A stretch of 64,000 bases of DNA from Deltaproteobacteria bacterium (GTDB lineage: Bacteria; UBA10199; JACPAL01; JAHFST01): positions 1-64,000 of the forward strand of contig JAHFST010000005.1 in assembly GCA_023265625.1 (NCBI GenBank), written 5' to 3'. The notes under the pieces are model-generated. The model saw only the letters and a program-made list of their open reading frames with translations, was not told where the DNA came from and searched no databases. Positions 13,300 to 33,848 of the stretch are shown one piece after another; the stretch's first letter is position 1; each line of letters begins with the position of its first letter. The translations under genes and the position numbers were made by a program.

Positions 13300-15144
13300 A
13301 TGGATTTTTTAACAAAAAATTTACAGCACTTTGAACAACGATACCCCCATTATTTTAAAGAGCTTAACAAGCGAATTCCCCCCTCAAGCCGTAGTGATTT
13401 TATAGACACCTCGAATAACACAATGGAGGCGATAATTGGCGCGCGCATGATCCTATGTCTCGGGATTGGGGATGCTATTTTTCTCCAAAAAATCTTTCAA
13501 ACTCCAGAGACCCATGATGCCCCACCGCGCCTATTAATCATAGAAAAATCCTGGGATATCGTGATTCATGCGATCTCTCGATATGATTTATCAGAAATTA
13601 TTCTTTCTTCGAGCGTAGCATGGCTCATTGGCCTCGATTTAGAGGAGGCTCAGCATTTTTTAACAGACTATTGTCGAAGTGAAAAAACCCTCATGGCCCT
13701 GGGATCCGTCTGCCGTGTAACCGCTTACGCTCATCACGACCAGCAATATTACACAACTCTGGAAGACTTGTTTTCGAAAATGTCTCAAGATGCTTATGAA
13801 ATTCCAATGGCACCTCTGGAAGATAATTATCAATCTCTTCTAAACGTCGTACGCAACATTCCATTGATTCCACCCATTCCTTTTTTCGACCGCTTGAAGG
13901 GGGTCTGCCGTGGGCTACCGGGTGTTGTCATTGCCGCCGGCCCCTCTTTGACGCAATCTCTTCCGCTCTTGGCGGAGTATCAGGAGAAGGCTATTTATTG
14001 TTGTTCGGATGCCACACTTACTTTGTTGCTCAAGCATGGCATTAATCCTTTGTTTGTTGCTTCTTTAGAACGGGTTCCGGAATCGATTCATTTCTTTAAA
14101 AATATGCCTGACGCCCCCAACACCTATTTGGTTGCCAATCCTATTTTACTTCCAGAGGTTTTGCAGGCTTATCGTGGACCCAAATGTTTTTTAGCGAGAG
14201 ATGGCGCACAACTCGCCTGGTTCTTTCCAAAGGAACAAACCCATATAACAGGAGGATCCTCCGCCACCATGGCCTTTTGGTGCCTCCATCTACTGGGGTG
14301 TGACCCCATCCTACTTGTTGGCCAGGATCTTGCTTTTGATCGCCATTCCGATCGGTCCCATGCCCAAGAGATTGCGGGAGTCGGTCCCGAATTGTGCACT
14401 ACGGCTTATCAAAAACTAAAAATTGAGCAATCCTCCGGTGGAAAAAATTGGATAGAAGGAAATGACGGACAGCCAATCTTGAGTTGGGAATGGTTCATCG
14501 GTTTTATCCAGGATTACAAAAGATTGATCCAAAAAAGCGGCAAGACCTGCATCAATGCCATTCCAGAAAATTATGGGGCTAAAATCCCAGGCTCCCAAAA
14601 AATGAATCCTGTAGAAGCTTTTGCTAAATATGCCCAAACGAAGATCGATATCAATGCCATCAAGATGACCCTTATTAAGCTTTTAACTTTGGGTTCGCCT
14701 GAAGTTGATGAAAATAGAAAATTGCTGCAAAAATGCTGTCAGGAAGGACATGACTATTTAGCAAACTGTGTCATTCCAGGAATCCTGGATATCATGCAAC
14801 ACATCAGCGTCTTTTTTCAGTACCATTTACCGGATTCTGGGCATCACGATGCAGAACGACTTTACCGTGATTTTTTTAAAACCGTGGAGGGCAAACACAC
14901 GGCTATTGTTCAGCTCAATCCATTGGCTCACCAATACCTAGTAAGTACTCTGACGGGACACCAGAAAATCAGGAGCTCTTTGGCCATTGCAGAACTGCTC
15001 AGGCGCCCAGAACCATTCGATCAAAAAATCGTCCCTATGATTGATACTTTGCAGGCCTATTATCGAGAGGCCCTGTCATGGGCCTGCCGTGTGGCTAATC
15101 TGCTTAAAAATGGCCTTAGCCATTTCAATACGATGGGTGAATAA
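13300..15144 (+). CDS. Maf-type flagellin glycosyltransferase (DUF115), type C
   Basis: A 614-residue motility-associated factor family protein. Maf proteins of Campylobacter, Helicobacter, Aeromonas and others transfer nonulosonic acids such as pseudaminic or legionaminic acid to flagellin. The central MptE-like domain is clear: PGVVIAAGPSLTQSLPLL (from about 208), ASLERVPES, and LLVGQDLAFDRHSDRSHAQE (about 338). The N-terminal domain has MILCLGIGDAIFLQKIF and the C-terminus is helical. It is divergent from the two other plus-strand Maf proteins. The downstream TPR-GT41 gene begins 10 bp after it. Confidence 0.9.
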   Translation: MDFLTKNLQHFEQRYPHYFKELNKRIPPSSRSDFIDTSNNTMEAIIGARMILCLGIGDAIFLQKIFQTPETHDAPPRLLIIEKSWDIVIHAISRYDLSEIILSSSVAWLIGLDLEEAQHFLTDYCRSEKTLMALGSVCRVTAYAHHDQQYYTTLEDLFSKMSQDAYEIPMAPLEDNYQSLLNVVRNIPLIPPIPFFDRLKGVCRGLPGVVIAAGPSLTQSLPLLAEYQEKAIYCCSDATLTLLLKHGINPLFVASLERVPESIHFFKNMPDAPNTYLVANPILLPEVLQAYRGPKCFLARDGAQLAWFFPKEQTHITGGSSATMAFWCLHLLGCDPILLVGQDLAFDRHSDRSHAQEIAGVGPELCTTAYQKLKIEQSSGGKNWIEGNDGQPILSWEWFIGFIQDYKRLIQKSGKTCINAIPENYGAKIPGSQKMNPVEAFAKYAQTKIDINAIKMTLIKLLTLGSPEVDENRKLLQKCCQEGHDYLANCVIPGILDIMQHISVFFQYHLPDSGHHDAERLYRDFFKTVEGKHTAIVQLNPLAHQYLVSTLTGHQKIRSSLAIAELLRRPEPFDQKIVPMIDTLQAYYREALSWACRVANLLKNGLSHFNTMGE

Positions 15145-15154
15145 TGAAATTTCA

Positions 15155-16873
15155 ATGACAGATGCACTCCTTCAAACCGCTTTTTCCGCCCAGCAGTCGG
15201 GCGATCTTGTGTCCGCTGAACAACTCTACCAAAAAATCATTGCACTCCATCCTCAGGATGAAACATCTCACTGCTGTCTTGCCGACGTTCAACGACTCTT
15301 GGGAAAGTTTGATAAGGCGGCCCATAACTATCAACGCGTCCTTCAGATTAATAAGAACAACGCGGGCGCATGGACCAATCTTGGCGCCATGTATTGGTCA
15401 AGAGGCAAGCTATCGGAAGCTCTTGCCTGTACACAGCAAGTGATCCAGTTGTGTCCGGATTTCTCTGAGGCCTATAACAACCTTGGTTGTATCGCTAAAA
15501 ATCAAGGCAATCTGCAGTCGGCACTGGTAGCATTTCGTCAGGCAATCACGCTACGTCCCAACTATCACGCTGCCCACAGCAACTACCTCTTCGCACTCAA
15601 CTACCTCCCCAACCTGTCTCCGGAAGAGATCTTTGCAAAACACAAAAGCTTCTCACCCTGTTGTCATCCTGAGCCAAAGGCGAAGGACCTCACGGCGTCC
15701 GCGGTCTCCGGGAGATCATTCACGGATGTTCAGGATGACAAATCAAACCGGGGTCAGGGCGCAGCACGCAGCGCCCCTACAAATCGCAAAATTAAAGTCG
15801 GGTATCTCTCCCCAGACTTCCGTACCCATTCGGTCGCCTACTTCATCGAACCCATCCTCGCTCATCACAACCCGGATCAGTTTGAGGTCTTCTGCTATGC
15901 CGATGTCCCTCACCCTGACCTCACTACTCAACGCCTCAAGGGCCTGGTCCCTCACTGGCATGATACCCATCCACTATCGGACTCAGAGCTCTTCGACCTC
16001 ATCCGTTCCCATCAACTCGATATCTTAGTCGATCTTGCGGGTCACACCGCTAGTAATCGTCTCCCCATCTTTGCCCAACGGGCGGCTCCCATTCAGGTCA
16101 CTTACCTAGGCTACCCTAACACCACAGGTCTCTCCCAGATCGACTACCGTCTCACTGACCCTATTGCTGATCCCCCCGATCAAGACACTCTCTACACCGA
16201 AAAACTCTATCGTCTCCCCCACGGCTTCCTCTGCTATCAGCCCCCTCCCAATGCCCCGGACATCAATCCACTCCCAGCCCTCCACAATGGCTTCATTACC
16301 TTTGCCTCCTGCAACGCCTTGCCCAAGATTAACCCAGAGGTCATCTCGCTCTGGTCCCAGATCCTCAACGCCGTCCCTCACTCCAGGCTCCTCCTTAAAA
16401 ATAGCTCCTTTTCTGACGCCGCCACCAACCAACACTACCTCCAGCTCTTCTCCCAACACGGCATCTCCCCAGATCGCCTCTCCCTCTTGGGTTGGTCCAA
16501 AGACACCGCCTCGCATCTCTCCATCTATCACCAAATTGACATCGCACTCGACACGTTCCCTTACAACGGCACAACCACTACCTGTGAAGCCCTCTGGATG
16601 GGCGTCCCGGTCATTACGTTGCAGGGAAACAGGCATGCGGGAAGGGTCGGAATGAGTGTTTTGGAGAATGCAAACTGTCCGCAAGGCATCACTTCCTCCC
16701 TTCAGGATTACTGTCTCCGAGCCGTTGACCTTGCACAAGACCTGACCAAGCTGACCCAGTTACGCCAAGGCCTCCAAACTAAACTCCGTCATGCCAATAT
16801 CCTCAACCCCTACAGCTTCATCTCTTCCATTGAAACCGCCTATCGGGAAATGTTAAATATGTCGGGTTTATGA
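15155..16873 (+). CDS. TPR-GT41 glycosyltransferase (O-GlcNAc transferase-like) carrying in-frame palindromic repeats
   Basis: A 573-residue protein. Residues 1-150 are about four TPR repeats (for example EAYNNLGCIAKNQGNLQSAL). The GT41/SPINDLY-type catalytic region starts at IKVGYLSPDFRTHS (about 213) and includes DILVDLAGHTASNRL, VTYLGYPNTTGL, FASCNALPKINP, and CEALWMGVPVITLQGNRHA. Members transfer sugars to Ser/Thr of proteins, and flagellin is a plausible target. The linker at about 169-210 is lengthened by two palindromic elements (15661-15741 and 15757-15783) read through in frame. ATG 15155 follows the upstream maf stop by 10 bp; an earlier in-frame start lies inside that gene. Overlaps the next maf by ATGA. 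Confidence 0.88.
   Translation: MTDALLQTAFSAQQSGDLVSAEQLYQKIIALHPQDETSHCCLADVQRLLGKFDKAAHNYQRVLQINKNNAGAWTNLGAMYWSRGKLSEALACTQQVIQLCPDFSEAYNNLGCIAKNQGNLQSALVAFRQAITLRPNYHAAHSNYLFALNYLPNLSPEEIFAKHKSFSPCCHPEPKAKDLTASAVSGRSFTDVQDDKSNRGQGAARSAPTNRKIKVGYLSPDFRTHSVAYFIEPILAHHNPDQFEVFCYADVPHPDLTTQRLKGLVPHWHDTHPLSDSELFDLIRSHQLDILVDLAGHTASNRLPIFAQRAAPIQVTYLGYPNTTGLSQIDYRLTDPIADPPDQDTLYTEKLYRLPHGFLCYQPPPNAPDINPLPALHNGFITFASCNALPKINPEVISLWSQILNAVPHSRLLLKNSSFSDAATNQHYLQLFSQHGISPDRLSLLGWSKDTASHLSIYHQIDIALDTFPYNGTTTTCEALWMGVPVITLQGNRHAGRVGMSVLENANCPQGITSSLQDYCLRAVDLAQDLTKLTQLRQGLQTKLRHANILNPYSFISSIETAYREMLNMSGL
15661..15741. repeat. TGTCATCCTGAG-type palindromic repeat inserted in frame
   Basis: The ends TTGTCATCCTGA (15661-15672) and TCAGGATGACAA (15730-15741) are reverse complements, and the inner parts are partly complementary (GGACCT...GGGAGATC). 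It is 81 bp long, a multiple of three, and is translated as a linker in the TPR-GT41 protein. The homologous linker at 30640-30700 lacks it. Similar TCATCCTGAG palindromes are a common small-repeat type in many bacterial genomes, by my recollection. Confidence 0.75.
15757..15780. repeat. GTAGGGGCG-type palindromic repeat, copy 2
   Basis: GGGCGC (15757-15762) and GCGCCC (15771-15776) followed by CTACAAAT. It lies in frame between the TPR and GT41 parts of the protein encoded here. The copy at 30674 sits at the same place in a paralogous gene, which implies insertion before the duplication. Confidence 0.65.
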
Positions 16874-18849: not shown

Positions 18850-18865
18850 TGGCACCTTGATTGCA
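18850..18865 (+). promoter_or_regulatory. Sigma-54 promoter, TGGCAC-N5-TTGCA
   Basis: TGGCAC (18850-18855), five bases, TTGCA (18861-18865): a full match to the -24/-12 consensus. The transcript would begin near 18875, leaving a short leader with AGAGG before ATG 18889. It should drive the amidotransferase-hisH-hisF-methyltransferase unit. Sigma-54 control of flagellar and flagellin-modification genes is well known in several proteobacteria. Confidence 0.75.
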
Positions 18866-18888
18866 GAAGGTACTACCAAGAGGTGTCT

Positions 18889-20100
18889 ATGGGAACCAAG
18901 CAGATACGCTACTGCACCCAATGTGTCATGCCTGAAACACGCCCCGATTTTCATATTGATACATCCGGTATCTGTAATGCCTGTAAGCACTACGCCTTGA
19001 GGCAAGAGGTTGATTGGGAAACACGACGCGAGGAACTGGTTAAAATCCTTGATCGGTACCGCTCAAAAAATGGCACCAACTATGATTGCATAGTCCCCGT
19101 GAGTGGCGGCAAAGACAGCCATTTCCAGGTGATCCGGATGTTGGAACTTGGGATGAATCCGCTCTGCATCACCGCCACCACAGACATGCTGACGGACATC
19201 GGGCGACGCAACATTGAAAACCTCAAAAAATTGGGGGTCGACTATATCGAGGTCACTACTAAGCCCAATGTACGCAGGCGTATCAACAAACTGGCCCTCA
19301 CTCAAATCGGAGACATCTCCTGGCCTGAGCATGTCACCATCTTTACCATACCGGTCCGCCTCGCAGTGCAAATGAACATCCCCCTCCTCATCTGGGGTGA
19401 AAATTCGCAAAATGAATACGGAGGGCCCGCCGCTGATGCTCAGAACAACGTCCTCACACGCCGATGGTTGGAAGAATTTGGCGGGCTCTTGGGGCTCAGA
19501 GTTTCTGACTTGGTCGGTCAGGCGGACATCTCGGAACGAGACCTCATCCAATACACTTATCCAACCGATGCCGAACTCAAAAAGGTAGGGGTCACGGGAA
19601 TCTTCCTAGGCCATTACCTCCCATGGGATGGTTACCAAAATGTCTTAGTGTCACAAGCTCACGGCTTTGAAACCTATCACAAAACTATTGAAGGTTCCTG
19701 CGTCAACTATGAAAACCTGGATAACGGACAAACCGGAATTCACGATTACTTTAAATTTTTAAAATTTGGTTTCGGGCGATCTTCCGATCTTGCATCCCTC
19801 CACATCCGGAGAGGTCGTCTGTTACGGAGTGATGGTATCCAATTGGTCAAAAAACATGACGGCAAATTCCCTTGGGAATATGTCGGGTGCAAACTGGAGG
19901 ACATTTTGCGGGATATCTCGATGTCATTGGAAGAATTCATCAGGGTCTGCGACCGCTTTACCAACAAAAAATTATTTATGTGTGATGCGAATGATCAGTT
20001 GGTGAAGACAAAGGATGGCCACCTGACCAAGATCAATGACGACAATCCCGCGTCATCCCGAAAGGTTGCCGGGCCAACCAGGATTGTGAGTAACCTTTAA
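18889..20100 (+). CDS. N-acetyl sugar amidotransferase (WbuX/WbpG/PseA-like), module 1
   Basis: A 403-residue PP-loop ATPase of the family that turns an acetamido group on a nucleotide sugar into an acetamidino group. Zinc-type pairs CTQC (Cys9, Cys12) and CNAC frame the N-terminus; the PP-loop SGGKDS is at 72-77. Other conserved parts are IFTIPVRLAVQMNIPLLIWGEN and GIHDYFKFLKFGFGR. In the studied Pseudomonas system WbpG works with HisH2 and HisF2, which supply ammonia; here hisH and hisF follow at once. ATG 18889 has AGAGG upstream; GTG 18883 is less likely. The sugar substrate is not encoded nearby, since no pse or leg synthesis genes were seen. Confidence 0.92.
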   Translation: MGTKQIRYCTQCVMPETRPDFHIDTSGICNACKHYALRQEVDWETRREELVKILDRYRSKNGTNYDCIVPVSGGKDSHFQVIRMLELGMNPLCITATTDMLTDIGRRNIENLKKLGVDYIEVTTKPNVRRRINKLALTQIGDISWPEHVTIFTIPVRLAVQMNIPLLIWGENSQNEYGGPAADAQNNVLTRRWLEEFGGLLGLRVSDLVGQADISERDLIQYTYPTDAELKKVGVTGIFLGHYLPWDGYQNVLVSQAHGFETYHKTIEGSCVNYENLDNGQTGIHDYFKFLKFGFGRSSDLASLHIRRGRLLRSDGIQLVKKHDGKFPWEYVGCKLEDILRDISMSLEEFIRVCDRFTNKKLFMCDANDQLVKTKDGHLTKINDDNPASSRKVAGPTRIVSNL

Positions 20101-20104
20101 TCTT

Positions 20105-20722
20105 ATGAAAAAGGTCGTCATCATCGATTACGGGATGGGCAACCTGGATTCCGTAAGACGTGCTATTGAAGAATGTGGGGGAACCCCCATTATTTCCTGT
20201 GAAAAACAGGAAATCAATCAGGCATCGCACATTGTCCTGCCAGGCGTGGGGTCATTTGCGGACGGGATGAGAAATATTTGCCAGCGGGGTTTGGATGAAT
20301 GGTTAACCGAGCGCGCCTTACAACAAGGGATCCCGCTGCTCGGCATCTGTCTTGGCATGCAGCTCATGGCGCAAAAAGGCCTTGAGGGAGGCGAGACCAC
20401 CGGTCTTGCCTGGCTTGACGCCAAGGTGGAGAAATTGCAAGCCACCTCGGCAGAAAAGCGTATCCCTCATATTGGCTGGAACGAGGTTCATGTCTCAGTG
20501 TCATCCCCCCTCTTCAAGGGCATTGATTCCGGAAAAGATTTCTACTTTGTCCATAGCTACCACCTGGTAGCTCGCGACCCTGATTTGGCCGCGGCAACCA
20601 CCCCATACTGTGGGCAATTTATCTCAGCGATCGCAAAAGATAACTTATTCGGGGTGCAGTTCCATCCCGAGAAAAGTCAAAAGGTTGGATTTAAGTTGTT
20701 AAGGAATTTTATCAGCCTGTAA
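20105..20722 (+). CDS. hisH: HisH-like glutamine amidotransferase subunit, module 1
   Basis: A 205-residue class I glutaminase. The catalytic Cys82 lies in LGICLGMQLM, and His187 and Glu189 in FHPEKS complete the triad; GVGSFADGMRN and PHIGWNEV are family segments. It would hydrolyse glutamine and pass ammonia to the partner HisF. No other his genes are present, and the amidotransferase lies 4 bp upstream, so the role is sugar amidation rather than histidine synthesis. Confidence 0.92.
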   Translation: MKKVVIIDYGMGNLDSVRRAIEECGGTPIISCEKQEINQASHIVLPGVGSFADGMRNICQRGLDEWLTERALQQGIPLLGICLGMQLMAQKGLEGGETTGLAWLDAKVEKLQATSAEKRIPHIGWNEVHVSVSSPLFKGIDSGKDFYFVHSYHLVARDPDLAAATTPYCGQFISAIAKDNLFGVQFHPEKSQKVGFKLLRNFISL

Positions 20723-20729
20723 GGGCATT

Positions 20730-21488
20730 ATGATTAAAGCCCGCGTCATGCCTACTCTGCTGGTGAAGGGCTTCGGTCTCGTCAAAGGGGTCCGTTTCGA
20801 TAGTTGGCGTCCCATTGGCAGCATCATGCAGGCCGTGAAGGTATATAATATGCGCGAAGTGGATGAACTCGTCTTACTGGATATTCGGGCAACCGACGAT
20901 AGTCGGATGCCTGATTTTTCGTTAATCGATGATATTGCCGATGAGTGCTTTATGCCCCTCACCGTTGGGGGCGGCATTCGATCCATCGATGATGTGAGAA
21001 AACTGCTCCAGGTCGGTGCCGACAAGATTGCCATCAATACCGCCGCCGTTGAAACTCCCGGGCTGGTTTCAGTTCTATCAGAAAAATTCGGGGCACAATG
21101 CATCGTGATCTCGATTGATGCAAAAAAATTAGCCAATGGCAAATACGAGGTTTTTACCCATTCCGCCACGAAACCAACCGGCCTCGATCCTGTCTCATTT
21201 GCCCAACAAATGGAACGAAACGGGGCGGGGGAAATTCTGCTCACTTCCATTGATCGCGACGGCACGATGCTGGGCTATGACCTGGAGTTGATCCAAATGG
21301 TCAGCCAAGCAGTTTCCATTCCGGTCATTGCTTCTGGGGGGGCGGGCAATTACCAACATATGGAGGCGGCACTTACCGAGGCCAATGCCACGGCCGTGGC
21401 TGCCTCCAGTATCTTCCAATTCACCCAGCAAACGCCCATAGAGGCTAAACGTTACTTATCTGACCACGGCATTAAAGTTAGAATTTAA
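20730..21488 (+). CDS. hisF: HisF-like ammonia-channel subunit lacking the catalytic Asp11, module 1
   Basis: A 252-residue (beta/alpha)8 barrel of the HisF family. The canonical start CLDVKDGRVVKG is replaced by TLLVKGFGLVKG, so the position of Asp11, the general acid/base of imidazole-glycerol-phosphate synthase, is Leu11. The second Asp, equivalent to Asp130, is kept in ISIDAKK. TVGGGIRS and IPVIASGGAGN are the phosphate-binding loops. It probably serves as an ammonia conduit for the neighbouring sugar amidotransferase and not as an IGP synthase. Confidence 0.9.
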   Translation: MIKARVMPTLLVKGFGLVKGVRFDSWRPIGSIMQAVKVYNMREVDELVLLDIRATDDSRMPDFSLIDDIADECFMPLTVGGGIRSIDDVRKLLQVGADKIAINTAAVETPGLVSVLSEKFGAQCIVISIDAKKLANGKYEVFTHSATKPTGLDPVSFAQQMERNGAGEILLTSIDRDGTMLGYDLELIQMVSQAVSIPVIASGGAGNYQHMEAALTEANATAVAASSIFQFTQQTPIEAKRYLSDHGIKVRI

Positions 21489-22854: not shown

Positions 22855-23868
22855 TTATAATGAAAGCGGCCATTCTTTATTTTCTTGATTATTGTCACCG
22901 GACAGCCTTTCCAAATCGGCAACACACCCCATGCAAACTGTACCAGCACCATATTCTTTCTGAATATTTCCCATCTTCAGACCCATGGCCACCCAGCGGC
23001 ATACTTGTCCCGCGGTGATCGACTTACAGTAGCAAACCATGGGGTCTTCCATACGATTGGCACTCCTAACACTACATACTGCTTCTTTCTTGTCCTGCCT
23101 ATTTTTCCCAGATGCAAAAAGGATTCCCATATGATCCATACCGGAGAGTATTGATGTACGATGGTGCCAGGTTTGAACGTAGCTATTCATTTTGTATTTA
23201 AAATGAAAAATCAGCATACCGGGACCTGATGAAAAAAAGGCTGGGAGCTCGTTGAAAAGTTCTTCGAGTCTATGGACGTGCAACGATTTCTTTGGGATAG
23301 ATATTTTTTTACCCATTTCATGTTCTCCGGCTTGATCATACAGCTTAACCTCATACTCGTTATCAAAGTCGTGGTGATTGATTGCCACCAACGCAGGTTC
23401 AAAATCCTCATTGCTCGTGATCCCTGGATAATAAAGATAACTACTATCAATCATAGAAGGGTCGGCACCGCGGGCCATCATCATGGGATAGTTCACGGCA
23501 ATCTTGCCATCTTGAGAATAGACCGAGGCCCATACTTCGCTATAAAAAAATCGCTCATCCCATTTCTCATTCCTGGAAAAAATAGTTACCTCAAAATAAC
23601 CGTTGGTGATCAAACGGCCTGCCAGCACATCTTGCAATGAAATGATTGTGAAGTTATAGAGAAGCACTTCCTGAGAGAATGTCTCTGCAATGATCTTTCC
23701 CTGTTCATAGACGCGGATCCGTGCCTGTAATGGAAAATGAGCCGGATTGAGGGACATGTGAGCCCCATTCAGCGTCACCGTTGTGTTGCACTGATCATCG
23801 CACCGGCACCAACCCACCAACGGGGGGTAACAATCCGCCAATTGATTCAGAGATGTTGTATCTGCCAT
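22855..23868 (-). CDS. Unknown protein with C-terminal BFD-like [2Fe-2S] domain
   Basis: A 337-residue protein. The C-terminal 45 residues match the BFD-like ferredoxin domain: CYC (Cys279, Cys281), KSITAGQVCRWVAMG, an EYGAGTVC turn and CMGC (Cys312, Cys315), the four ligands of a [2Fe-2S] cluster. Residues 1-260 are beta-rich and not recognised. They share a layout with the gene upstream: a strand-rich domain, then a helix (RLEELFNELPAFFSSGPG) and a final strand pair. The two genes overlap by 22 bp. Both lie on the minus strand, against the direction of the surrounding glycan genes. A redox or scaffold role is possible, but I cannot assign one. Confidence 0.75.
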   Translation of the reverse strand: MADTTSLNQLADCYPPLVGWCRCDDQCNTTVTLNGAHMSLNPAHFPLQARIRVYEQGKIIAETFSQEVLLYNFTIISLQDVLAGRLITNGYFEVTIFSRNEKWDERFFYSEVWASVYSQDGKIAVNYPMMMARGADPSMIDSSYLYYPGITSNEDFEPALVAINHHDFDNEYEVKLYDQAGEHEMGKKISIPKKSLHVHRLEELFNELPAFFSSGPGMLIFHFKYKMNSYVQTWHHRTSILSGMDHMGILFASGKNRQDKKEAVCSVRSANRMEDPMVCYCKSITAGQVCRWVAMGLKMGNIQKEYGAGTVCMGCVADLERLSGDNNQENKEWPLSL

Positions 23869-24788
23869 GTGCCTAGTTCCCGATTGTGAATGAAATAGTA
23901 ATAAATGCCCCCTTCGCTATCATTGGTCACATAGAGCGCGCCCGGTGCGCCCCTTAAAAAATCTGACAGGTCATTGAAGTATTTTGATAGCGGTATGAAG
24001 CATGATCCCCTCGTGTTGAGTTCAATCCTAATGATCTGCGGATGTGCATCCTGTGCGCAGTTAAGCAACTGACATTCAAACTTAACCGGCCTTGGCGCCC
24101 TATTGCATAGGGCTATAAATGTTTCCCTGTTATGATCGCATATGATAGTTGGATAGATGGTCATGCGATTTCTATTAAGCAATGCGCCTTTTTCATGGGT
24201 GGTTGTGATGGAATTATTGTTGTGCCAAAAAGCGTATACCCGAAGCGAGTGTAAATCCTCTTCGGCAGTTTCAAGGGTAAAGGCGCCATATTCCGCATCA
24301 ACATGGGCGGAGGCCAATAATTCTTTAACATCAAATGTGTGTGTTTCCCGCAGTCGGATGGTCGCATAACGGCGCAATATTTCGTCCCCGCGTTGATTGT
24401 AGAGTGAAAAATTGTAGTCGATCTCCGTGCGAGGGACCTTTGGATGATCGAACAGGCTCATGTTCACCCGCGTCCGCAATTGGGGCAAATTGGTAAAAAA
24501 CAACACCTGAGTCCAGCGTGCCGGCAGGGCATTGACATACTTGATAAAATTTGGATGTTGTCCCAACCGCCTCACGATTAGACGCCCCATTTCTGCGGGA
24601 TATTTTTGTTCGATCAGGGCCATGGCCTGTTGCAAAAATTGCGCCTGCCTGTCTAAGGGAATATTGAAGAGAAACCGGTCAAATTCTCGGTAGCTTCCTT
24701 GTGAAAACAAATCGATACCCTGCGCAAGAATACGACTTTCCTTCTCTTGAGTATCAGGGCAATAAGGCTCAAGCGCCTGCGGAAACTG
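23847..24788 (-). CDS. Unknown protein, paralogous in layout to its BFD-domain neighbour
   Basis: A 313-residue protein. About 90 helical N-terminal residues (SRILAQGIDLFSQGSYREFD) precede two beta-rich segments, and the end reads PLSKYFNDLSDFLRGAPGAL then a strand pair. This corresponds to the RLEELFNELPAFFSSGPG section of the gene downstream, but the [2Fe-2S] domain is absent. ATG 24788 is preferred because a sigma-54 motif lies just upstream; a longer reading from TTG 24851 would start upstream of that promoter. No good ribosome-binding site is visible, and the leader would be only a few bases, so the start is uncertain. No function is assigned. Confidence 0.65.
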   Translation of the reverse strand, partial: QFPQALEPYCPDTQEKESRILAQGIDLFSQGSYREFDRFLFNIPLDRQAQFLQQAMALIEQKYPAEMGRLIVRRLGQHPNFIKYVNALPARWTQVLFFTNLPQLRTRVNMSLFDHPKVPRTEIDYNFSLYNQRGDEILRRYATIRLRETHTFDVKELLASAHVDAEYGAFTLETAEEDLHSLRVYAFWHNNNSITTTHEKGALLNRNRMTIYPTIICDHNRETFIALCNRAPRPVKFECQLLNCAQDAHPQIIRIELNTRGSCFIPLSKYFNDLSDFLRGAPGALYVTNDSEGGIYYYFIHNRELGTWQIQHL

Positions 24789-24803
24789 CATTTTTATTTT
24801 AAT

Positions 24804-24819: not shown

Positions 24820-24886
24820 ATGATAATTAAAAATAACTTAAGTAATATCAAATAGTTACACTAATAAAACACCTCCCTCTCAAGAG

Positions 24887-25921
24887 GTGACGGAATTTTT
24901 TTCCGCTTCAGAACCTCATGCATTGAAATTTAACCTCGAAAAATGTTACAGCCCGTGGTCCATGCTGAGTCCACAACAAAACAAGTTCCTAAAAAATTCC
25001 CCCTATCTTCGATTTAAGATTTTTTCTAATCTTTGGCCTCACTATCAAAAATGTCCCCCATTGTCCGCCTTACAAGCCTCCACTCAAGGGAGACCATTGG
25101 TCTTTTTGTCCGATCCGCTTCCATCTGATTTTGACGGCGCGCCATTACGATCTAAGGCAATTATCTTGGCGGACTGTCACGTCTTAGCGCAACTAAAGCG
25201 GCTCAAATGCCTACCGCACCTTTGGTATGCGCCTCCCTCGCTCCATGAATATTATGAACATGTCCATCATCTAAAAAGTCTCGGCACTAGTGTCTGCATG
25301 ATAAACCATGCGACCCCGGTTTCTGTCTGCAATCGCATCCGCAATCCTGTCGTCAGGATCGATGAAGAGATCCCGAATTTGCTGGACAACCTAGGCCAGG
25401 AGCCATTATTCGATGCTCATAGAATTTGCGCCTTGTTGGGATGTGTATTCACGCCTCTGAACAAGATTAATACCTTGCCGCAATTAACCCCGATAGATTT
25501 GACCGATGTTGTCGCGTCACTCTCTCCCGTGGTACCCTCCAGCCCTTTTGCGGTTACTTCTGCCCCTGTCATTCAGGGTTTTATTCAGGAACTGAGCCAA
25601 CATCTAGAAAATATTTACCGTTTTCTCTATCTGGAAACTCTCGATAGAATTTTACAAGGAGAGGGGGGGGAAGCTAGAATGCGCGCTAAATACACGTCTT
25701 TTTTCCATGAGCTGGCGCATATCATCTCCCAATTCAAAGGCAGGCTTCCGTCTTTTATCCCCGCCATCTTAGCTTGCGAGGATCAATTATTGGAGGAATC
25801 ATTAAGAGAAATGAAGGAAGACATGGCATGGAATGAAGAACTTGAATCGAAGCTTTTGTGTTATGTCTATTGGTTTCAAGGATGCTTATACTGGCTTAAC
25901 TTGATTGCTTGCAGCCTATGA
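24887..25921 (+). CDS. Degenerate Maf-like protein lacking the GPS and GQDLA motifs
   Basis: A 344-residue protein. RPLVFLSDPLPSDFDGAP then KAIILADCHVLAQLKRLKCL and PHLWYAPPS follow the order of Maf segments such as KAIYCCSDATLTLLLKHGIN then PLFVASLE, and the C-terminus is helical like Maf. The usual AAGPSL and LLGQDLAFD motifs are missing and the protein is half the normal length. It ends in a 4-bp ATGA overlap with a full-length maf, so it is probably translated and coupled to it. GTG 24887 is the only upstream start and overlaps the only Shine-Dalgarno-like bases, so the N-terminus is uncertain. Assignment to Maf is my inference. Confidence 0.5.
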   Translation: MTEFFSASEPHALKFNLEKCYSPWSMLSPQQNKFLKNSPYLRFKIFSNLWPHYQKCPPLSALQASTQGRPLVFLSDPLPSDFDGAPLRSKAIILADCHVLAQLKRLKCLPHLWYAPPSLHEYYEHVHHLKSLGTSVCMINHATPVSVCNRIRNPVVRIDEEIPNLLDNLGQEPLFDAHRICALLGCVFTPLNKINTLPQLTPIDLTDVVASLSPVVPSSPFAVTSAPVIQGFIQELSQHLENIYRFLYLETLDRILQGEGGEARMRAKYTSFFHELAHIISQFKGRLPSFIPAILACEDQLLEESLREMKEDMAWNEELESKLLCYVYWFQGCLYWLNLIACSL

Positions 25922-27774
25922 GTTTTCTTGAAAAAAACCTGCAATTCTTAAAGAATACAGATCAGGACCTGGCAAAACGCGTTTCTGACCATCTGCAGCA
26001 TCAACCCATCAAGCCCTTAACATTCGATTCAAATGGCCTAAAAAATGTCCGGTTTGACAAGAATGAGTGGCTTTACAACAACAATCTGGAAAACGAATGC
26101 CATGTGTTGCTGGAAAAAATACATAAGACCTACAACCCCCAAATTGAGCTCTGGCTAGGGTTGGGACTGGGATACCATCTTTGTTCCTATCTCGGCAACC
26201 CTCATCCCCTGAATCAGTTTGTCTTGATAGTCGAACCCTCCATGGATTTTTTTTGTTATTTTTTGACCCAGCAAGACCTATCCGCTTTCCCTAGAAAACC
26301 GTTGATCTTCTGGCTTATCGCCCTCAATAATCAAGAACTTCATTTATTTTTTTTGAGGTTGCTGAATGACGGGAATTTTAGAAACTGCATTCAAAATCGC
26401 CTCACTATTGAGTGGGGATACGCCTCACAACGTCTCGAAGAAACCAAGCAAATCTGGCAAGATTTGGCCGTTCACTCCGAGCCTTGTATCCAATCCAACT
26501 CAATCGATGGATTCTATGGCTTCATGAACCTAATAGGCAACTGGAATATCTTGCAGTCCTCCCCTCCCCTGTCAGAATTTAAGGGAGCCTTGGAGGGGAT
26601 GCCGGGCATTGTTGTTTCTTCCGGCCCCTCTCTGCAACATTCGTTGCACTTATTGAAAGATGTTCGGGATAATGCGGCAATCTTTGCGGTTGATTCCGCC
26701 TACCGCTTACTGTTGCAGGCGGGCATTCAGCCTCACATGACCGGCTGTCTGGAACGGATCCCTTATCAGTCAACCTTGTATGCCAACACAGAAAACCACG
26801 AGTCTGTCTTTTTTGGCCCTCCGCTGCTCTATCCTGAGATATTTCTTCAGCACCATGGCCCGAAGGTTTTCTTGGAACAACAAGGTTTCTCCACCTTCTG
26901 GCTATTCCCGAACACACCGCCTTCTGGGCAAATTCCCCCTGTCACTTGCGTATCTCACATTGCCCTCTATGTACTGTGGTATTTGGGCTGTCGTCCCATC
27001 TATCTCCTGGGCCAAGATCTCGCCTTTGATCCAAAAACAAGGCAATCACATATGTCAGGCCTGACTCTCGACACCAGCAGTAACACCATGAAAAGTTATG
27101 GCATGAATTTATTATCCGTGCCCGCAAACAGCGGGAAAACGATCGAAACTAGCGAGTTGTGGTGGCATTATTCGATCGATTTTCTCAATATGATCTATCC
27201 GCTGCACATGGATTGCATCAACGTCATTCCGTCCGAATACGGCCTGCAACTTGGGAATATCCCGCGTGAAGACCCCACGACTGTCTTTCCGATGAGATTC
27301 CCCGCAAAACTGGACGTCAAAACGCGGTTAAGAGAAATATTTGATGAGTGGCGGCAAATAAAACAAGCGCAGCACCAAGATGCAATGTCGGCCTCTGTGA
27401 AAGAAGCAAAGATTAAACTTCCCAAAATGCTGTCCAAGTTGAATCGCCTCACAGAAAATATCTACATTTTCTATCTGGAACATAACCTTGCCGATCACCC
27501 AACCGTAGATTGGAGTAAGGACTACCAGGGCTTCCTACAGGATATAGAAAAAAGCATCCAAGACATCATGGACGATCACTCTTTCATCACATTGTTGTTC
27601 CCAATAGTCGCGGGAACGCATAATAGGCTCATGGGGTTAAGTTATACTCTCATGGCGGAAGACAATTCATCTTCCCAGATCTGGTCCAGCAAGCTTTTGA
27701 TCGTATTAAATTGGCTTTCGGAAATGATTATCCTATGCCAGATGCTCCTGAACCATTTGGATAAAATACCTTAG
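25918..27774 (+). CDS. Maf-type flagellin glycosyltransferase (DUF115), type D, copy 2
   Basis: A 618-residue Maf protein, a close paralogue of the one at 16870-18717. It has LWLGLGLGYHLCSYL, PGIVVSSGPSLQHSLHLL (about 230-248), HMTGCLERIPYQ, and IYLLGQDLAFDPKTRQSHMSG (shown in part). ATG 25918 overlaps the preceding stop (ATGA); the in-frame TTG 25909 is less likely. Both type D copies share VSHIALYVLWYLGCRP, so the duplication is fairly recent relative to the other Maf types here. Confidence 0.92.
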   Translation: MSFLEKNLQFLKNTDQDLAKRVSDHLQHQPIKPLTFDSNGLKNVRFDKNEWLYNNNLENECHVLLEKIHKTYNPQIELWLGLGLGYHLCSYLGNPHPLNQFVLIVEPSMDFFCYFLTQQDLSAFPRKPLIFWLIALNNQELHLFFLRLLNDGNFRNCIQNRLTIEWGYASQRLEETKQIWQDLAVHSEPCIQSNSIDGFYGFMNLIGNWNILQSSPPLSEFKGALEGMPGIVVSSGPSLQHSLHLLKDVRDNAAIFAVDSAYRLLLQAGIQPHMTGCLERIPYQSTLYANTENHESVFFGPPLLYPEIFLQHHGPKVFLEQQGFSTFWLFPNTPPSGQIPPVTCVSHIALYVLWYLGCRPIYLLGQDLAFDPKTRQSHMSGLTLDTSSNTMKSYGMNLLSVPANSGKTIETSELWWHYSIDFLNMIYPLHMDCINVIPSEYGLQLGNIPREDPTTVFPMRFPAKLDVKTRLREIFDEWRQIKQAQHQDAMSASVKEAKIKLPKMLSKLNRLTENIYIFYLEHNLADHPTVDWSKDYQGFLQDIEKSIQDIMDDHSFITLLFPIVAGTHNRLMGLSYTLMAEDNSSSQIWSSKLLIVLNWLSEMIILCQMLLNHLDKIP

Positions 27775-27892: not shown

Positions 27893-27908
27893 TGGCATTA
27901 CTTTTGCA
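27893..27908 (+). promoter_or_regulatory. Sigma-54 promoter, TGGCAT-N5-TTGCA
   Basis: TGGCAT (27893-27898), five bases, TTGCA (27904-27908), a full consensus match. Transcription would start near 27918, so the GTG at 27916 cannot be the start codon; ATG 27949 is used instead. It would drive the GT-B-like gene, the double GT41 gene and the second amidation module. Confidence 0.72.
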
Positions 27909-27948
27909 TTAGCTAGTGAACAGACTGTTGCTAGCGGGAAGATACGCC

Positions 27949-29919
27949 ATGGATGACAGAGATCTACTAGAAAGATTCGACCTTTCCGAAATTCCATGTC
28001 AAGGAGGGCCTGCTCTCAGCACGGTTGTGCCATCCCAATCTTCTCTGCATATTTATATTTTTACCAAAACGGAAAATGCGCAAAGATTTTTCCTAAATCT
28101 TGCATCGGCTCCACTCCATGGATCGTCCGTTTTTATCCTCCCTGACGTCAAAACCATTCCCGCCCAATGGCTACCAAGAAAGGCATCCGTCTACCTACTT
28201 TCAACGGCAAATTACATCTTAGACAAGAATGATATCAATATAACCGATAAAATCTGGGAGGCCCTGTATCGATACTTTGTGATCGATGCCTGGGGACAAT
28301 TCGCGCGGCAGGACTACAGGCTGCCCCTGATTATGAGCGACGACCCCGAATCCACCGCCTCCACACCTCACTTCCTCAACAACCTGCTCGCACCTTATAT
28401 TGAAATGGATAAAAAACTCCCCCCATCAAACACGGGTAAGCTTCAAACCAGGGAAGGCATCCTCGTCCAAAATACCGAAAATGGGGAGCTCTTCAACTCA
28501 CTCTATGAAACCCTGAGGTTCTCGGACAAACCGGTCTATCAAATCAATAACAATACGGGTTGGGTATCTGGAAGAGGTCTCACGAAGGAGAAATATCAGG
28601 ACATGAATAACAAAGATTTTGCCGATTACCTGATCCAAAAAAACATTGGGATGATTTATTTCATCAATTATTATTTTATGGCCATTGATGAGACGGGGAT
28701 AAGCCGCCTTTGGGTCCTGAAACGATTGGGCGTCATCGGTATTTCTGTCATTGTTGACATGGTCCTGGATGGGATGCACCCTATTCCGCTGCGTTATCTG
28801 CCTAACAACATTCACGCCATGGTCCTACACAGCACCGAAAACTTCCATGCATTTTTACAATACAGGTCATCTGCCCAGCTTCATAAGTGTCCTCAGATTG
28901 CCCCTAGCCCAAAGAAGGACCATCCTCCTCACAACGCCTCCATAGAAGGATTAGTGGTGACTTCAAATTCCCGACTCTTTTTTCTCAAGGATCTCAAAAA
29001 TCAAGGCTTCGATTGCACCCTCCTCTACCCGCTATTCCATCAACTACTCCAAAGGCAAATGCCCATCTACCACACCTATTTCATCTTTCTCCACGCCCTC
29101 GGCCAGGCGGGACTCAAGTTAAGCAAGGATAGGATGCTAGCCCTATTCAAGTACCTTACCTATACCTCCATCGTCTTAAGAACCTTTGTCCGGTATGAAC
29201 TCATCCAGAAAGCCGCACAAGTAACAGAACGCATCGGTCTTCCATTCAAAATATACGGCGATGATGATTGGCAAATGTTGTTTCCAAAATACCATCAAAA
29301 TAAATACCTCAATCAAACTGAGCTTGCTGCAGCACGCCAAAATAACATCAATCTGGACGCAACCCCCTCCAGCAGCTTTTACAGCCAGCATCCCGTCATC
29401 CCGCTGGTTCTGTTGGGAGGCGGCAGCATTTTAGCGCCCGCTCCTTATCCCTCTTCAGCTAAATCGCATCCTGCAGCGACAAAGGCGCTCAAACGTTTCT
29501 ACTTCAACAAGGCTGAGGATATGAAGGCCGCATTATTCAATGTGCTAGAAAAACCTCGCCTTGACCTATCTGAACAGGAGGCGGTCTCCGACGTGTTTGG
29601 GGTGTCCACATTAATCCAGTCTGCCAACCACATCCTCCAAGGCACCCCCTCAAACCGCTGGGATCTCATCCCGACCCTATCGGGCATGATCCCCACTATG
29701 CCTCCGGAAGAATATGAATTCATGGATTGTTGCGCCGACTACGTACTGGCGCTCTTCCAAGGCAACTATCAAAGACGCCATCCCGCAACCGAAACATCCG
29801 AGGCCCTGTTTCAACAGCTCGCTCTTTTTGGTAACAATAGAAACCAATTTTTTAAAGAAATACAGGATAGCTGCCCGTATTTGGAGAATTTATTGATCTT
29901 TCTCGGTGGAACCCCATGA
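27949..29919 (+). CDS. Putative GT-B glycosyltransferase, CgeB-like C-terminal part
   Basis: A 656-residue protein not recognised over most of its length. Residues from about 440 (GLPFKIYGDDDWQMLFPKY, then ELAAARQNNINLDATPSSSF, then VLLGGGSILAPAPYP and FYFNKAEDMKAALFNVL, partly shown) follow the order of CgeB-like/Glyco_trans_1_2 domains: G-D-W, N-INL and a final helix after a strand. The Glu of the usual vFEA motif is not seen, so activity is uncertain. It has its own sigma-54 promoter and overlaps the double TPR-GT41 gene by ATGA, which points to glycan work. Confidence 0.6.
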   Translation: MDDRDLLERFDLSEIPCQGGPALSTVVPSQSSLHIYIFTKTENAQRFFLNLASAPLHGSSVFILPDVKTIPAQWLPRKASVYLLSTANYILDKNDINITDKIWEALYRYFVIDAWGQFARQDYRLPLIMSDDPESTASTPHFLNNLLAPYIEMDKKLPPSNTGKLQTREGILVQNTENGELFNSLYETLRFSDKPVYQINNNTGWVSGRGLTKEKYQDMNNKDFADYLIQKNIGMIYFINYYFMAIDETGISRLWVLKRLGVIGISVIVDMVLDGMHPIPLRYLPNNIHAMVLHSTENFHAFLQYRSSAQLHKCPQIAPSPKKDHPPHNASIEGLVVTSNSRLFFLKDLKNQGFDCTLLYPLFHQLLQRQMPIYHTYFIFLHALGQAGLKLSKDRMLALFKYLTYTSIVLRTFVRYELIQKAAQVTERIGLPFKIYGDDDWQMLFPKYHQNKYLNQTELAAARQNNINLDATPSSSFYSQHPVIPLVLLGGGSILAPAPYPSSAKSHPAATKALKRFYFNKAEDMKAALFNVLEKPRLDLSEQEAVSDVFGVSTLIQSANHILQGTPSNRWDLIPTLSGMIPTMPPEEYEFMDCCADYVLALFQGNYQRRHPATETSEALFQQLALFGNNRNQFFKEIQDSCPYLENLLIFLGGTP

Positions 29920-32900
29920 ACGAACCCATGACCAAATCAGAAAATGCCGATTTATTAGAGGCCGCCGCGTTACATCGACTGGGACAACGGCAACCTGCCA
30001 GGGTAATCTATGCGAAAATATTACAAGAAAACCCAAACGACTTTAACGCCCTATTTCTCTTTGGCCTATGGCAGCATGAACAGTTAAATTATTCCGAGGC
30101 TATATCGTTACTGCGCCGCGCCCTCCGTATCGATGATCGCCATGACGGCTGTTGGTATTTGCTTGGTTCATGCCTGGAGGCCCTGGGTGATAACGCCGAA
30201 GCGGGGCGTTGCTATCAAAATACTTGCCAGATCAATCCCCAACATGTGACGGCCCTTAAAAAGATCGGCTACTTCCTGCACAACCAGGGCAAGCTTGATG
30301 AGTCAATGCTGTATTACCAACGGGCCAGCGCTCTGACTCCCAACGATCATGAGATACATACCAATCTCGGAATGATTTTCACGCAACAAGGCAAACTCAC
30401 TGAGGCCAACGATCACTATCAAGACTCCCTCAAAATCAACCCCAATGTTCCGGAGACTCATAACAATCTGGGTTGTGTCTCTAAAGATAGTGGGTTGCTA
30501 GATCAGGCCCTTATCAACTTCCAACAAGCTATCTCCCTCCGCCCCAATTACCATGCTGCTCATAGTAACTACCTCTTCGCACTAAATTACCTTCCTAATC
30601 TGTCTCCGGAAGAGATCTTTGAAAAACATCGGGCTTGGGGATCCATGATCCGGAACGGTATCAACCTGGGGCAGGGCGCAATAAATTGCGCCCCTACAAA
30701 TAACAAAATCAAGGTCGGGTATCTCTCTCCTGACTTCCGTACCCACTCCGTCGCCTACTTCATCGAACCCATCCTCGCTCATCACAACCAAGATCAGTTT
30801 GACATCTTCTGCTATGCCGATGTCCCGCACCCTGATCAAACTACACATCGCCTCAAGAGCCTCGTCCCTCACTGGTATGATACCCATCTCCTGCTTGACT
30901 CAGAACTCTGCGACCTCATCCAATCCCATCAACTCGATATCTTGGTCGATCTCGCTGGTCACACCGCCGGTAACCGTCTCCCGGTCCTGGCTCGAAAAGT
31001 AGCCCCCATCCAAGTCACCTATCTGGGCTACCCCAACACCACAGGACTCTCTCAGATCGACTACCGTCTCACTGACCCCATTGCCGATCCCCCCGATCAA
31101 GACCCCCTCTACACCGAAAAACTCTATCGACTCCCTCACGGCTTCCTCTGTTATCAACCCCCGCTCAATGCCCCGGACATCAAGCTACTCCCAGCCCTCC
31201 ACAATGGCTTCATTACCTTTGGCTCCTGCAACGCCTTGCCCAAGATTAACCAAAATGTCATCGCTCTCTGGTCCCAGATCCTCAACGCCGTCCCTCATTC
31301 CAAGCTCCTCCTCAAAAATAGCTCCTTCGGCGACCTCAACACTCGCCAACACTACCTCCAACTCTTCTCCCAGCACGGCATCTCCCCGGATCGCCTCTCC
31401 CTCTTGGGTTGGTCCAAGGACACCGCCTCGCATCTCTCCATCTACCACCAAATCGACATCGCCCTCGACACGTTCCCCTACAACGGGACCACCACCACCT
31501 GCGAAGCACTCTGGATGGGGGTTCCGGTCATCACGCTCCAGGGAAACAGGCATGCGGGAAGGGTCGGAATGAGCGTTTTGGAGAATGTTCAGCTCTCTGA
31601 CTGGATTGCCGCCACACCGTTGGACTATCAACAGAAGGCCATCTATTGGACCCAAAACTTACAGGAGTTATCCAACCTCAGGACAAAACTTCGTGGTCGA
31701 ATGACACACGCTCCTTTACTCAACGCACCCTCATTTGTCAAAAATCTTGAAAAAACTTATCTGCAGATGACCGCCTCTCATTTACTTGTACAAGCGTTTG
31801 AATACCATCAATCAGGAAACCTTACGGCAGCGGAGCCATTGTATTTAGAAATTTTGAGGGAAGAGCCTCAGAATTCTCGGGCCTTATTTTTACTGGCCAC
31901 ATTGCAGGCCCAGTGCAGCAAATTTGAGGAGGCTAAGAGACTCTTTCAAAAGGTATTAGAACTGACTCCTGACTCCATTGAGACTTACAATAATTTAGGC
32001 AATGTCTTGATGATGCAAGGAAAACACGAGGAGGCGTTGCATTGCTATCAGAGTGCGCTGCGTCTCAAACCTGACTATGACGAGGGATTTCTCAATATGG
32101 GAAAAGTCTTGAGGGCCATGGGGCACAACGATCTTGCCCTCGATAGCTATCGCCAGGCCATCTTGATCAATCCCAAACAAGTCGCTGCATTGGTTGAGAT
32201 AGGACTATCGCTTTACCAGCAGGGAAATATTTCTGCATCCATGGAATTCTATGAAAAAGCCCTGGCCATTGAACCCCGCTGCTTACCTGCCCTGGAAAAC
32301 TTGGGAATTTGTTTGCAGGCAGAGGGAAAAATTAATCAGGCCATCCTTTGTTATCAACAGGTTATTGCAACAAGTCCCAGTGCCACCACCTACAATAATC
32401 TTGGCGTGGCTTACAAAGAGGCTGGAGAATTGGCAATGGCGGTAAATTGTTACCAGCAGGCCATCGATCTTAACCCTGAACATGCCATCGCCTATTCCAA
32501 CCTGGGAGCGGGTTATAAAAATCAAGGCAAACTGGATTTGGCCATCGATGCCTACCGTAAGGCCCTTCAGCTCAATCCAGGCTACGCAGAGGCCCATAGC
32601 AATCTCTTACTCACCCTCAATTATCATCCGAAATACTCTGCATCATCCTTGTATGCCGAGCATCACGCATGGAATCAAATACATGCCTCAACATCCCCGT
32701 GTTTGTCGCATTCTAACCGGTTAGAAAACCGAGTTCTTAAAATTGGCTATGTCTCTCCCGATTTATACAACCATTCGGTCAGCTATTTTCTTGAGCCAAT
32801 TTTATCCAAACACGACCCTAAGCAATTTGATGTCTTTGTCTATGCGCAAGTCTTACGCCCGGATCAGACCACCCAACGCCTAAAATCATTAGTACCCCAT

Positions 32901-33848
32901 TGGCGTTCAACAGTCGGCTTATCCGATGATGAGATGTTCAAGATGATCCAAGCCGACGAGATTGATATCCTGATTGACCTCGCCGGGCACACGGCATCCA
33001 ATCGACTAAAAGTTTTTTCCATGAAACCTGCACCGATTCAAGTGACTTACTTGGGTTACCCCAATACCACAGGCCTCAAAACCATGGATTACCGCCTGAC
33101 AGATCAATGGGCCGATCCCCCCGATCAGGACCAGTGGCACAGTGAACGCCTGATACGCCTCCCTCGAGGGTTTTTGTGTTATACACCCCCGAGAAACGCA
33201 CCGGACGTTAACCCTTTGCCGGCGGATCAATGCGGCGTATTTACTTTTGGGTCTTTTAACCATTTGGCAAAGATCACTCCTCCGGTCATTAAAACTTGGG
33301 CGGGAATTCTCAAAAGAGTCCCGCAATCTCGCCTCGTCATCAAGGCAAAATCACTAAAAGATCAAGCCACCTGTGACCATTATCGTACCCTGTTTGCCCG
33401 GCAAAATATTTCATCGGATCGGATCGATTTGGTGAGTTGGGCCCCCTCCACGGAGGGACATCTGGCCCTTTACCATAAAATTGATGTGGCCCTCGATGCA
33501 TTTCCCTATCATGGCACAACCACCACCTGTGAGGCCCTCTGGATGGGTGTTCCGGTCATTACATTATCCGGCAACCGACATGCCAGTCGCGTGGGAAACA
33601 GCCTGCTGACTCGCCTTGACTGTCAAGAATGGATCGCCGCTGATGAGGACCATTACGTTGCTTTGGCTCAGCAACTAGCCGACAATCTGCCAAAACTGCG
33701 GGACTTTCGCATGAAGGCCCGCGAGAGGATGATGCGATCTTCTCTCTGCGATCCTCAGTCAATCACCACCGATATGGAACAGGCCTATCGATCCATGTGG
33801 CAGGACTATGGGCGTAAGCCATTGGCCTTTTCACCAAAAATAACTTAG
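29916..33848 (+). CDS. Double TPR-GT41 glycosyltransferase (two complete enzymes in one chain)
   Basis: A 1310-residue protein with the order TPR - GT41 - TPR - GT41. TPRs lie at about 10-235 and 625-905. The GT41 cores start at IKVGYLSPDFRTHS (about 264) and LKIGYVSPDLYNHS (about 940), and each has an AGHTA motif, a VTYLGYPNTTGL motif, a FGS(C/F)N...KI motif and CEALWMGVPVITL. No stop or frameshift interrupts the chain. The first half is close to the protein at 15155 and carries the same GTAGGGGCG repeat in its linker (residues about 253-261). Two active centres could glycosylate two sites or add two sugars. ATGA overlap with the previous gene; the next gene starts 9 bp after. Confidence 0.9.
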   Translation: MNEPMTKSENADLLEAAALHRLGQRQPARVIYAKILQENPNDFNALFLFGLWQHEQLNYSEAISLLRRALRIDDRHDGCWYLLGSCLEALGDNAEAGRCYQNTCQINPQHVTALKKIGYFLHNQGKLDESMLYYQRASALTPNDHEIHTNLGMIFTQQGKLTEANDHYQDSLKINPNVPETHNNLGCVSKDSGLLDQALINFQQAISLRPNYHAAHSNYLFALNYLPNLSPEEIFEKHRAWGSMIRNGINLGQGAINCAPTNNKIKVGYLSPDFRTHSVAYFIEPILAHHNQDQFDIFCYADVPHPDQTTHRLKSLVPHWYDTHLLLDSELCDLIQSHQLDILVDLAGHTAGNRLPVLARKVAPIQVTYLGYPNTTGLSQIDYRLTDPIADPPDQDPLYTEKLYRLPHGFLCYQPPLNAPDIKLLPALHNGFITFGSCNALPKINQNVIALWSQILNAVPHSKLLLKNSSFGDLNTRQHYLQLFSQHGISPDRLSLLGWSKDTASHLSIYHQIDIALDTFPYNGTTTTCEALWMGVPVITLQGNRHAGRVGMSVLENVQLSDWIAATPLDYQQKAIYWTQNLQELSNLRTKLRGRMTHAPLLNAPSFVKNLEKTYLQMTASHLLVQAFEYHQSGNLTAAEPLYLEILREEPQNSRALFLLATLQAQCSKFEEAKRLFQKVLELTPDSIETYNNLGNVLMMQGKHEEALHCYQSALRLKPDYDEGFLNMGKVLRAMGHNDLALDSYRQAILINPKQVAALVEIGLSLYQQGNISASMEFYEKALAIEPRCLPALENLGICLQAEGKINQAILCYQQVIATSPSATTYNNLGVAYKEAGELAMAVNCYQQAIDLNPEHAIAYSNLGAGYKNQGKLDLAIDAYRKALQLNPGYAEAHSNLLLTLNYHPKYSASSLYAEHHAWNQIHASTSPCLSHSNRLENRVLKIGYVSPDLYNHSVSYFLEPILSKHDPKQFDVFVYAQVLRPDQTTQRLKSLVPHWRSTVGLSDDEMFKMIQADEIDILIDLAGHTASNRLKVFSMKPAPIQVTYLGYPNTTGLKTMDYRLTDQWADPPDQDQWHSERLIRLPRGFLCYTPPRNAPDVNPLPADQCGVFTFGSFNHLAKITPPVIKTWAGILKRVPQSRLVIKAKSLKDQATCDHYRTLFARQNISSDRIDLVSWAPSTEGHLALYHKIDVALDAFPYHGTTTTCEALWMGVPVITLSGNRHASRVGNSLLTRLDCQEWIAADEDHYVALAQQLADNLPKLRDFRMKARERMMRSSLCDPQSITTDMEQAYRSMWQDYGRKPLAFSPKIT
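30674..30697. repeat. GTAGGGGCG-type palindromic repeat, copy 3
   Basis: GGGCGCAAT (30674-30682) and ATTGCGCCC (30685-30693) form a perfect 9-bp inverted repeat followed by CTACAAAT. It is read in frame as part of the linker LGQGAINCAPTN between TPR and GT41. Confidence 0.7.

Follow-up and report, generated by a model that had tools for sequence, protein, structure and literature searches.

Two overlapping genes in a flagellar glycan island probably encode divergent members of an unnamed four-repeat family, one with a putative BFD-type iron-sulfur domain

The proteins encoded by genes P2 and P1 are very probably divergent members of an unnamed family of four-repeat proteins, an assignment that sequence comparison supports well, if not beyond doubt. 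The simplest reading is that a four-repeat protein has here been split between two genes, the second of which has gained a BFD module. The family is probably cytosolic and may act within glycan pathways for nonulosonic acids of pseudaminic or legionaminic type. The original prediction for this locus could place the two proteins in no family; it still holds that no described family (Pfam, NCBIfam, PDB sequence) accommodates them, but they are isolated no longer, as an unnamed tandem-repeat family recurs in nonulosonic-acid islands. Positions refer to the window, the whole 64,000-nucleotide stretch of DNA analysed, unless a locus is named (Table 1).

Table 1. Positions of the P2-P1 pair, its surroundings and its relatives
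Feature	Position	Strand	Source or remarks
P1	22855..23868	-	ATG start, 337 aa; repeats a (~13-130) and b (~141-248), polar linker, C-terminal BFD-type domain (277-321)
P2	23847..24791	-	ATG start, 314 aa; probably helical ~1-85, repeats a (~88-205) and b (~208-314)
BFD-type four-Cys domain of P1	22906..23040	-	PF04324 match, 29.7 bits, profile positions 1-46 of 50
Sigma-54-like -24/-12 site before P2	24804..24819	-	TGGCATAATATCTGCA; 19.5 of 22 on a simple matrix
WbpG-like amidotransferase, HisH, HisF	18883..21488	+	63-75% identity to WbpG-type loci elsewhere; HisH/HisF matches
SAM methyltransferase, convergent to P1	21502..22842	+	Pfam Methyltransf_23
Maf-type (MptE-like) flagellin glycosyltransferase, one of seven in the window	25909..27774	+	PF01973
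NtrC-family sigma-54 activator with receiver domain, directly before the eighth Maf gene	L158:17099-18571		Contig C21, about 101.1-102.6 kb
Four-repeat protein	L119:8311-9879		Nitrospinaceae
Four-repeat protein	L109:15294-16859		Limnohabitans
Four-repeat protein	L172:1501-3129		Alphaproteobacterium (L100/L172)
Four-repeat protein	L174:1372-2949		Burkholderiales order
Two overlapping genes with beta-repeat layout	L093:14906-15754 and L093:14115-14921		Actinomycetota

Both open reading frames are present, adjacent and on the minus strand, as first described, although the boundary given for P2 (24788) was one codon off, its ATG lying at 24791; a TTG at 24851 is also in the open frame. The frames of P2 and P1 overlap by 22 bases and an AGG stands a few bases 5' of the P1 ATG, so the two are probably cotranslated. 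Their codon-position composition is similar to that of the neighbouring genes. P1 converges with the methyltransferase gene, the two ends lying 12 bases apart, and P2 is divergent from a plus-strand gene at 24887-25921. The latter encodes 344 residues with no Pfam match; its C-terminal helical part resembles the neighbouring Maf proteins, and it is possibly a decayed or shortened Maf.

On its sequence, each protein is an a-b pair of beta-rich repeats. A predicted order of about four strands, a short helix and two to three strands recurs across the repeats. Alignment of P1 domain b with P2 domain b gives z = 6.4, with none of 1000 shuffles scoring as high, and P1b with P2a gives z = 3.6; these values bear out the earlier claim of a beta-rich layout common to both genes. 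P1a shows no relation to the other repeats in the same shuffle test. Searches of Pfam, NCBIfam and PDB sequences found no relative for P2 or for the part of P1 outside the BFD domain, so that, in keeping with the original prediction, the N-terminal domain falls in no known unrelated family. Direct sequence searches with P1 and P2 gave nothing in their own genome, 46 genomes of the class, plasmids or the PDB. P2 had no match in 385 wider-spread genomes, and P1 none in 84,980 species genomes, a search that reaches close relatives only. A scan of viral contigs was empty. Weak matches, among them an ATPase (L003) and a cyanobacterial oxygenase-like protein (L101), were dismissed as noise once read. 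Neither such a protein nor such a fusion turned up in the literature searched.

The shared domain was pursued by a profile search, as had been proposed with the original prediction, and this recovered the four-repeat family. A profile made from the four repeats of P1 and P2 was run against the open reading frames of 80 loci encoding WbpG-like proteins. The first match was weak (E 8), a 523-residue Nitrospinaceae protein in which the same layout occurs four times; because this match is not significant alone, profiles without window sequences were used for testing. Limnohabitans and an alphaproteobacterium (L100) both encode clear homologues of the Nitrospinaceae protein, the alphaproteobacterial one being complete in L172; a further homologue, more distant (E 4e-27), comes from a genome of the order Burkholderiales. 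All are single chains of 508-543 residues, roughly 520, and no Pfam or NCBIfam family matches the members scanned, which do not include the Burkholderiales protein. Two matches were set aside on reading: L111, the top match of a relative outside the family, as a probable glycosyltransferase, and L148 as a CAAX-protease-like membrane protein.

Membership was put to three ranked tests, of which one was negative. Before the repeats were split by parity, a whole-length relative placed P2 at rank 28 and P1 at rank 85 against 789 controls, which is not significant. The repeats of the relatives were then separated into odd (1, 3) and even (2, 4), with profiles built without P1 or P2. The even-repeat profile ranks P1 first of 704 (E 3.9e-4; score 30.3 against 20.1 for the best of 700 control ORFs) and aligns it in the right register over residues 169-224, which is domain b. 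P2 is only sixth of 704 on this profile, and P2b alone reaches no significance, whereas the aligned P1b and P2b pair gives E 2.4e-5 over 72 columns (reversed control, 0.72). With the odd-repeat profile P2 is the best match outside the family (E 5.5e-4; 29.7 against 24.0 for the best of 700 controls), aligned to domain a, and P1 is third among such entries with 23.4, against the same best control. Membership is further supported because parity agrees in the best matches of both proteins, domain a pairing with odd and domain b with even repeats.

P1 and P2 share with the four-repeat proteins the a-b(-a-b) arrangement, a C-terminal His motif that recurs in the repeats (GGDHAF, GMDHMG, QHL) and a location in islands of HisH/HisF/NeuB type. 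They differ in forming two chains with a BFD domain on P1, whereas the relatives are one chain and have no iron-sulfur domain. Three of the four relatives are mutually 41-49% identical, much closer than to P1 or P2. Within NYWREKN, VNGP and THSYFD, several residues are invariant in the closer relatives and only partly kept in P1 and P2, so the function of the pair may have shifted. Division over two genes appears also in an actinomycetote, where two overlapping genes of the same layout lie in a NeuB/WbpG island; unlike P1, neither carries a BFD domain. One of these (L093:14115-14921) ranks second of 704 on the even-repeat profile, and membership of the other (L093:14906-15754) is weak (rank 35).

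That P1 ends in a BFD-like domain with four cysteines, as originally proposed, was confirmed. Pfam Fer2_BFD matches residues 277-321 above its cut-off of 26 bits (E 1e-5, 26.2 bits; 29.7 bits in the genome search), and the cysteines lie exactly at positions 279, 281, 312 and 315, with the CxC-x30-CxxC spacing and the GAGTxCxxC context kept. It is likely, from the behaviour of the family, that this domain binds a [2Fe-2S] cluster. The alternative that the four cysteines bind zinc or nothing, the BFD fold having decayed or been repurposed for protein binding, would suit a Pfam score so barely above the cut-off, but it is improbable given that all four ligands and their context are retained and that the genome search scored higher. 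BFD domains are typical of Bfd, NirB, NifU and GlpA proteins, which P1 resembles in its four cysteines, their spacing and the sequence context. In those proteins the module stands alone or on an oxidoreductase, whereas in P1 it is fused to beta repeats without a known enzyme family. P2 has no BFD domain, nor has any of the four-repeat relatives, and the fusion of BFD domain and repeats was seen nowhere except in P1. Those other BFD proteins of the class whose translations were examined are short CopZ-like proteins or enzymes, and have no repeats.

Since BFD modules are elsewhere carried on oxidoreductases, P1 and P2 could themselves be an enzyme, perhaps one that modifies sugars by redox chemistry, in which the cluster serves as electron-transfer centre. 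The conserved polar residues and recurring His motif of the repeats would fit such a role. It is nevertheless very unlikely, as Pfam and NCBIfam scans detect no cofactor-binding fold or enzyme family and the relatives do their job without an iron-sulfur domain.

The setting in a flagellar glycan island, with the pair directed against the glycan genes, is sound as first described. The window holds seven Maf-type (MptE-like) genes and two WbpG-HisH-HisF sets; translations of the surrounding island include flagellin, FliD, FliS, FlhF, FleN, FliA and FlhA, and a Pse-type set (PseB-like, NeuB) lies further along the same contig. The second WbpG-HisH-HisF set is at 33858-36394 (+), and two separate sets suggest two amidated (acetamidino-type) sugars.

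Gene names around the relatives were assigned partly by comparison with window proteins and partly by reading. In Nitrospinaceae the order is WbpG, HisH, HisF, a TylF methyltransferase and the repeat protein. In Limnohabitans its neighbours are a NeuB-type gene on one side and a TylF-type gene on the other, and flagellin genes flank the island. The alphaproteobacterial repeat protein also adjoins a TylF-type gene, and NeuB, WbpG, HisH and HisF are in the island; a TylF-type methyltransferase is thus the neighbour in three of the four (L119, L109, L100). In the Burkholderiales genome (L174/L175) the repeat protein follows NeuB, HisH, HisF, NeuA-like and SDR genes, and the actinomycetote pair stands between an ABC transporter-like gene and the NeuB/WbpG island. 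Co-occurrence with WbpG is partly built in, since the loci were fetched through WbpG; the Burkholderiales locus is free of this bias, having been found by a genome search with the repeat protein itself. Recurrence of the family in nonulosonic-acid islands ties P1 and P2 more firmly to the glycan pathway.

This recurrence bears on whether the pair serves general iron or redox housekeeping (iron release or electron transfer, for instance as a Bfd partner), its island location being incidental. The usual company of BFD domains agrees with housekeeping, as do the orientation of P1 and P2 against the island genes and the only other above-cut-off BFD protein of the genome, a probable glycerol-3-phosphate dehydrogenase. 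Such a function is nonetheless judged unlikely: the repeat family is so far found only in nonulosonic-acid islands, P2 lacks the BFD domain, and the sigma-54-like site before P2 suits flagellar control.

A motif of the type TGGCAC-N5-TTGCW is present there, and its GG-N10-GC spacing is exact. Eleven sites in the window score at least 19.5. Four of them lie upstream of genes, where 40 shuffles gave 0.3 on average and never more than 3. The two highest-scoring sites stand before WbpG (18883; site 18850-18865) and before a gene at 27916 (site 27893-27908, second-best). An NtrC-type sigma-54 activator is encoded in the flagellar region of the same contig, about 76-78 kb from the pair. The sigma-54 motif originally placed before the first gene is real, with upstream sites enriched, but it leaves P2 almost no leader: only 12 bases separate its end from the P2 ATG, and the predicted transcript start falls almost on the ATG. 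With the -12 element so near, P2 may have a nearly leaderless transcript, it may begin further on (TTG, ~24710), or the motif may play no part in its expression.

AlphaFold gave models of low confidence, with a mean pLDDT of 37.9 for P1 by itself and of 47.4 for a four-repeat relative (three sequences), and Foldseek matches to complement proteins (TM about 0.1) are not meaningful. The repeats were also compared with ASRAH (Anabaena sensory rhodopsin transducer-like) domains, sugar-binding sensor domains that occur in pairs and fours and are linked to sugar genes (PMC2739507); among known domains that bind small molecules, this alone seemed similar. Similar size, a beta-rich layout, linkage to sugar genes and a conserved Asn ending an early strand would suit a reading of P1 and P2 as an intracellular sugar sensor with redox input. 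A profile of six ASRT sequences, however, singles out neither the pair nor the relatives (P1 33rd, P2 322nd, relatives 64th to 470th of 708), Pfam ASRT (PF07100) matches none of them, and the ASRT His/Cys pocket signature is absent by inspection. The profile result does not support placement in ASRAH/ASRT, and the sensor reading built on it is highly improbable.

A reading of P2 and P1 as a divided, diverged four-repeat protein that acts as a cytosolic glycan-handling scaffold is put forward tentatively, as one possibility, with an iron-sulfur relay or sensor left open. No signal-like N-terminal stretch is seen by inspection in P1 or the four-repeat relatives, and one account of Aeromonas describes Maf-type flagellin glycosylation as preceding export (PMC4065374), which together make a cytosolic helper plausible. 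P2 and P1 would associate and rebuild an a-b-a-b unit. Going by context only, the ligand of the repeats might be a sugar intermediate or glycosylated flagellin, which they would present to a tailoring enzyme; before flagellin export they may also hold a modifying enzyme in place or regulate it, a methyltransferase for example. The BFD module would bind a [2Fe-2S] cluster and either relay electrons to a partner or make the complex responsive to iron or redox state; neither role is favoured, and each is rated below the already tentative scaffold. It is a long shot that P1 and P2 form an iron-sulfur-gated adaptor through which addition or tailoring of nonulosonic-acid glycans on flagellin depends on redox or iron state. 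A literature search found no described link between iron-sulfur status and flagellin glycosylation. Redox sensing for flagellin modification, the function first suggested, is a hypothesis. The fusion in P1 is a natural hint at a testable redox connection, and Limnohabitans (sp. 2KL-51), which has a single-chain relative, is a possibly cultivable system. Since the four-repeat family is absent from Pfam and NCBIfam and recurs in distant bacteria, a pathway step or helper may be missing from current schemes.

Other proteins of the island also stand out. The gene at 27916-29919 (+) encodes a 667-residue protein with no Pfam family. Beside the Maf genes, 29916-33848 (+) encodes 1310 residues that look like two halves in tandem, each a TPR and SPINDLY/OGT-type glycosyltransferase, and a single-unit version of this protein is encoded at 15041-16873.
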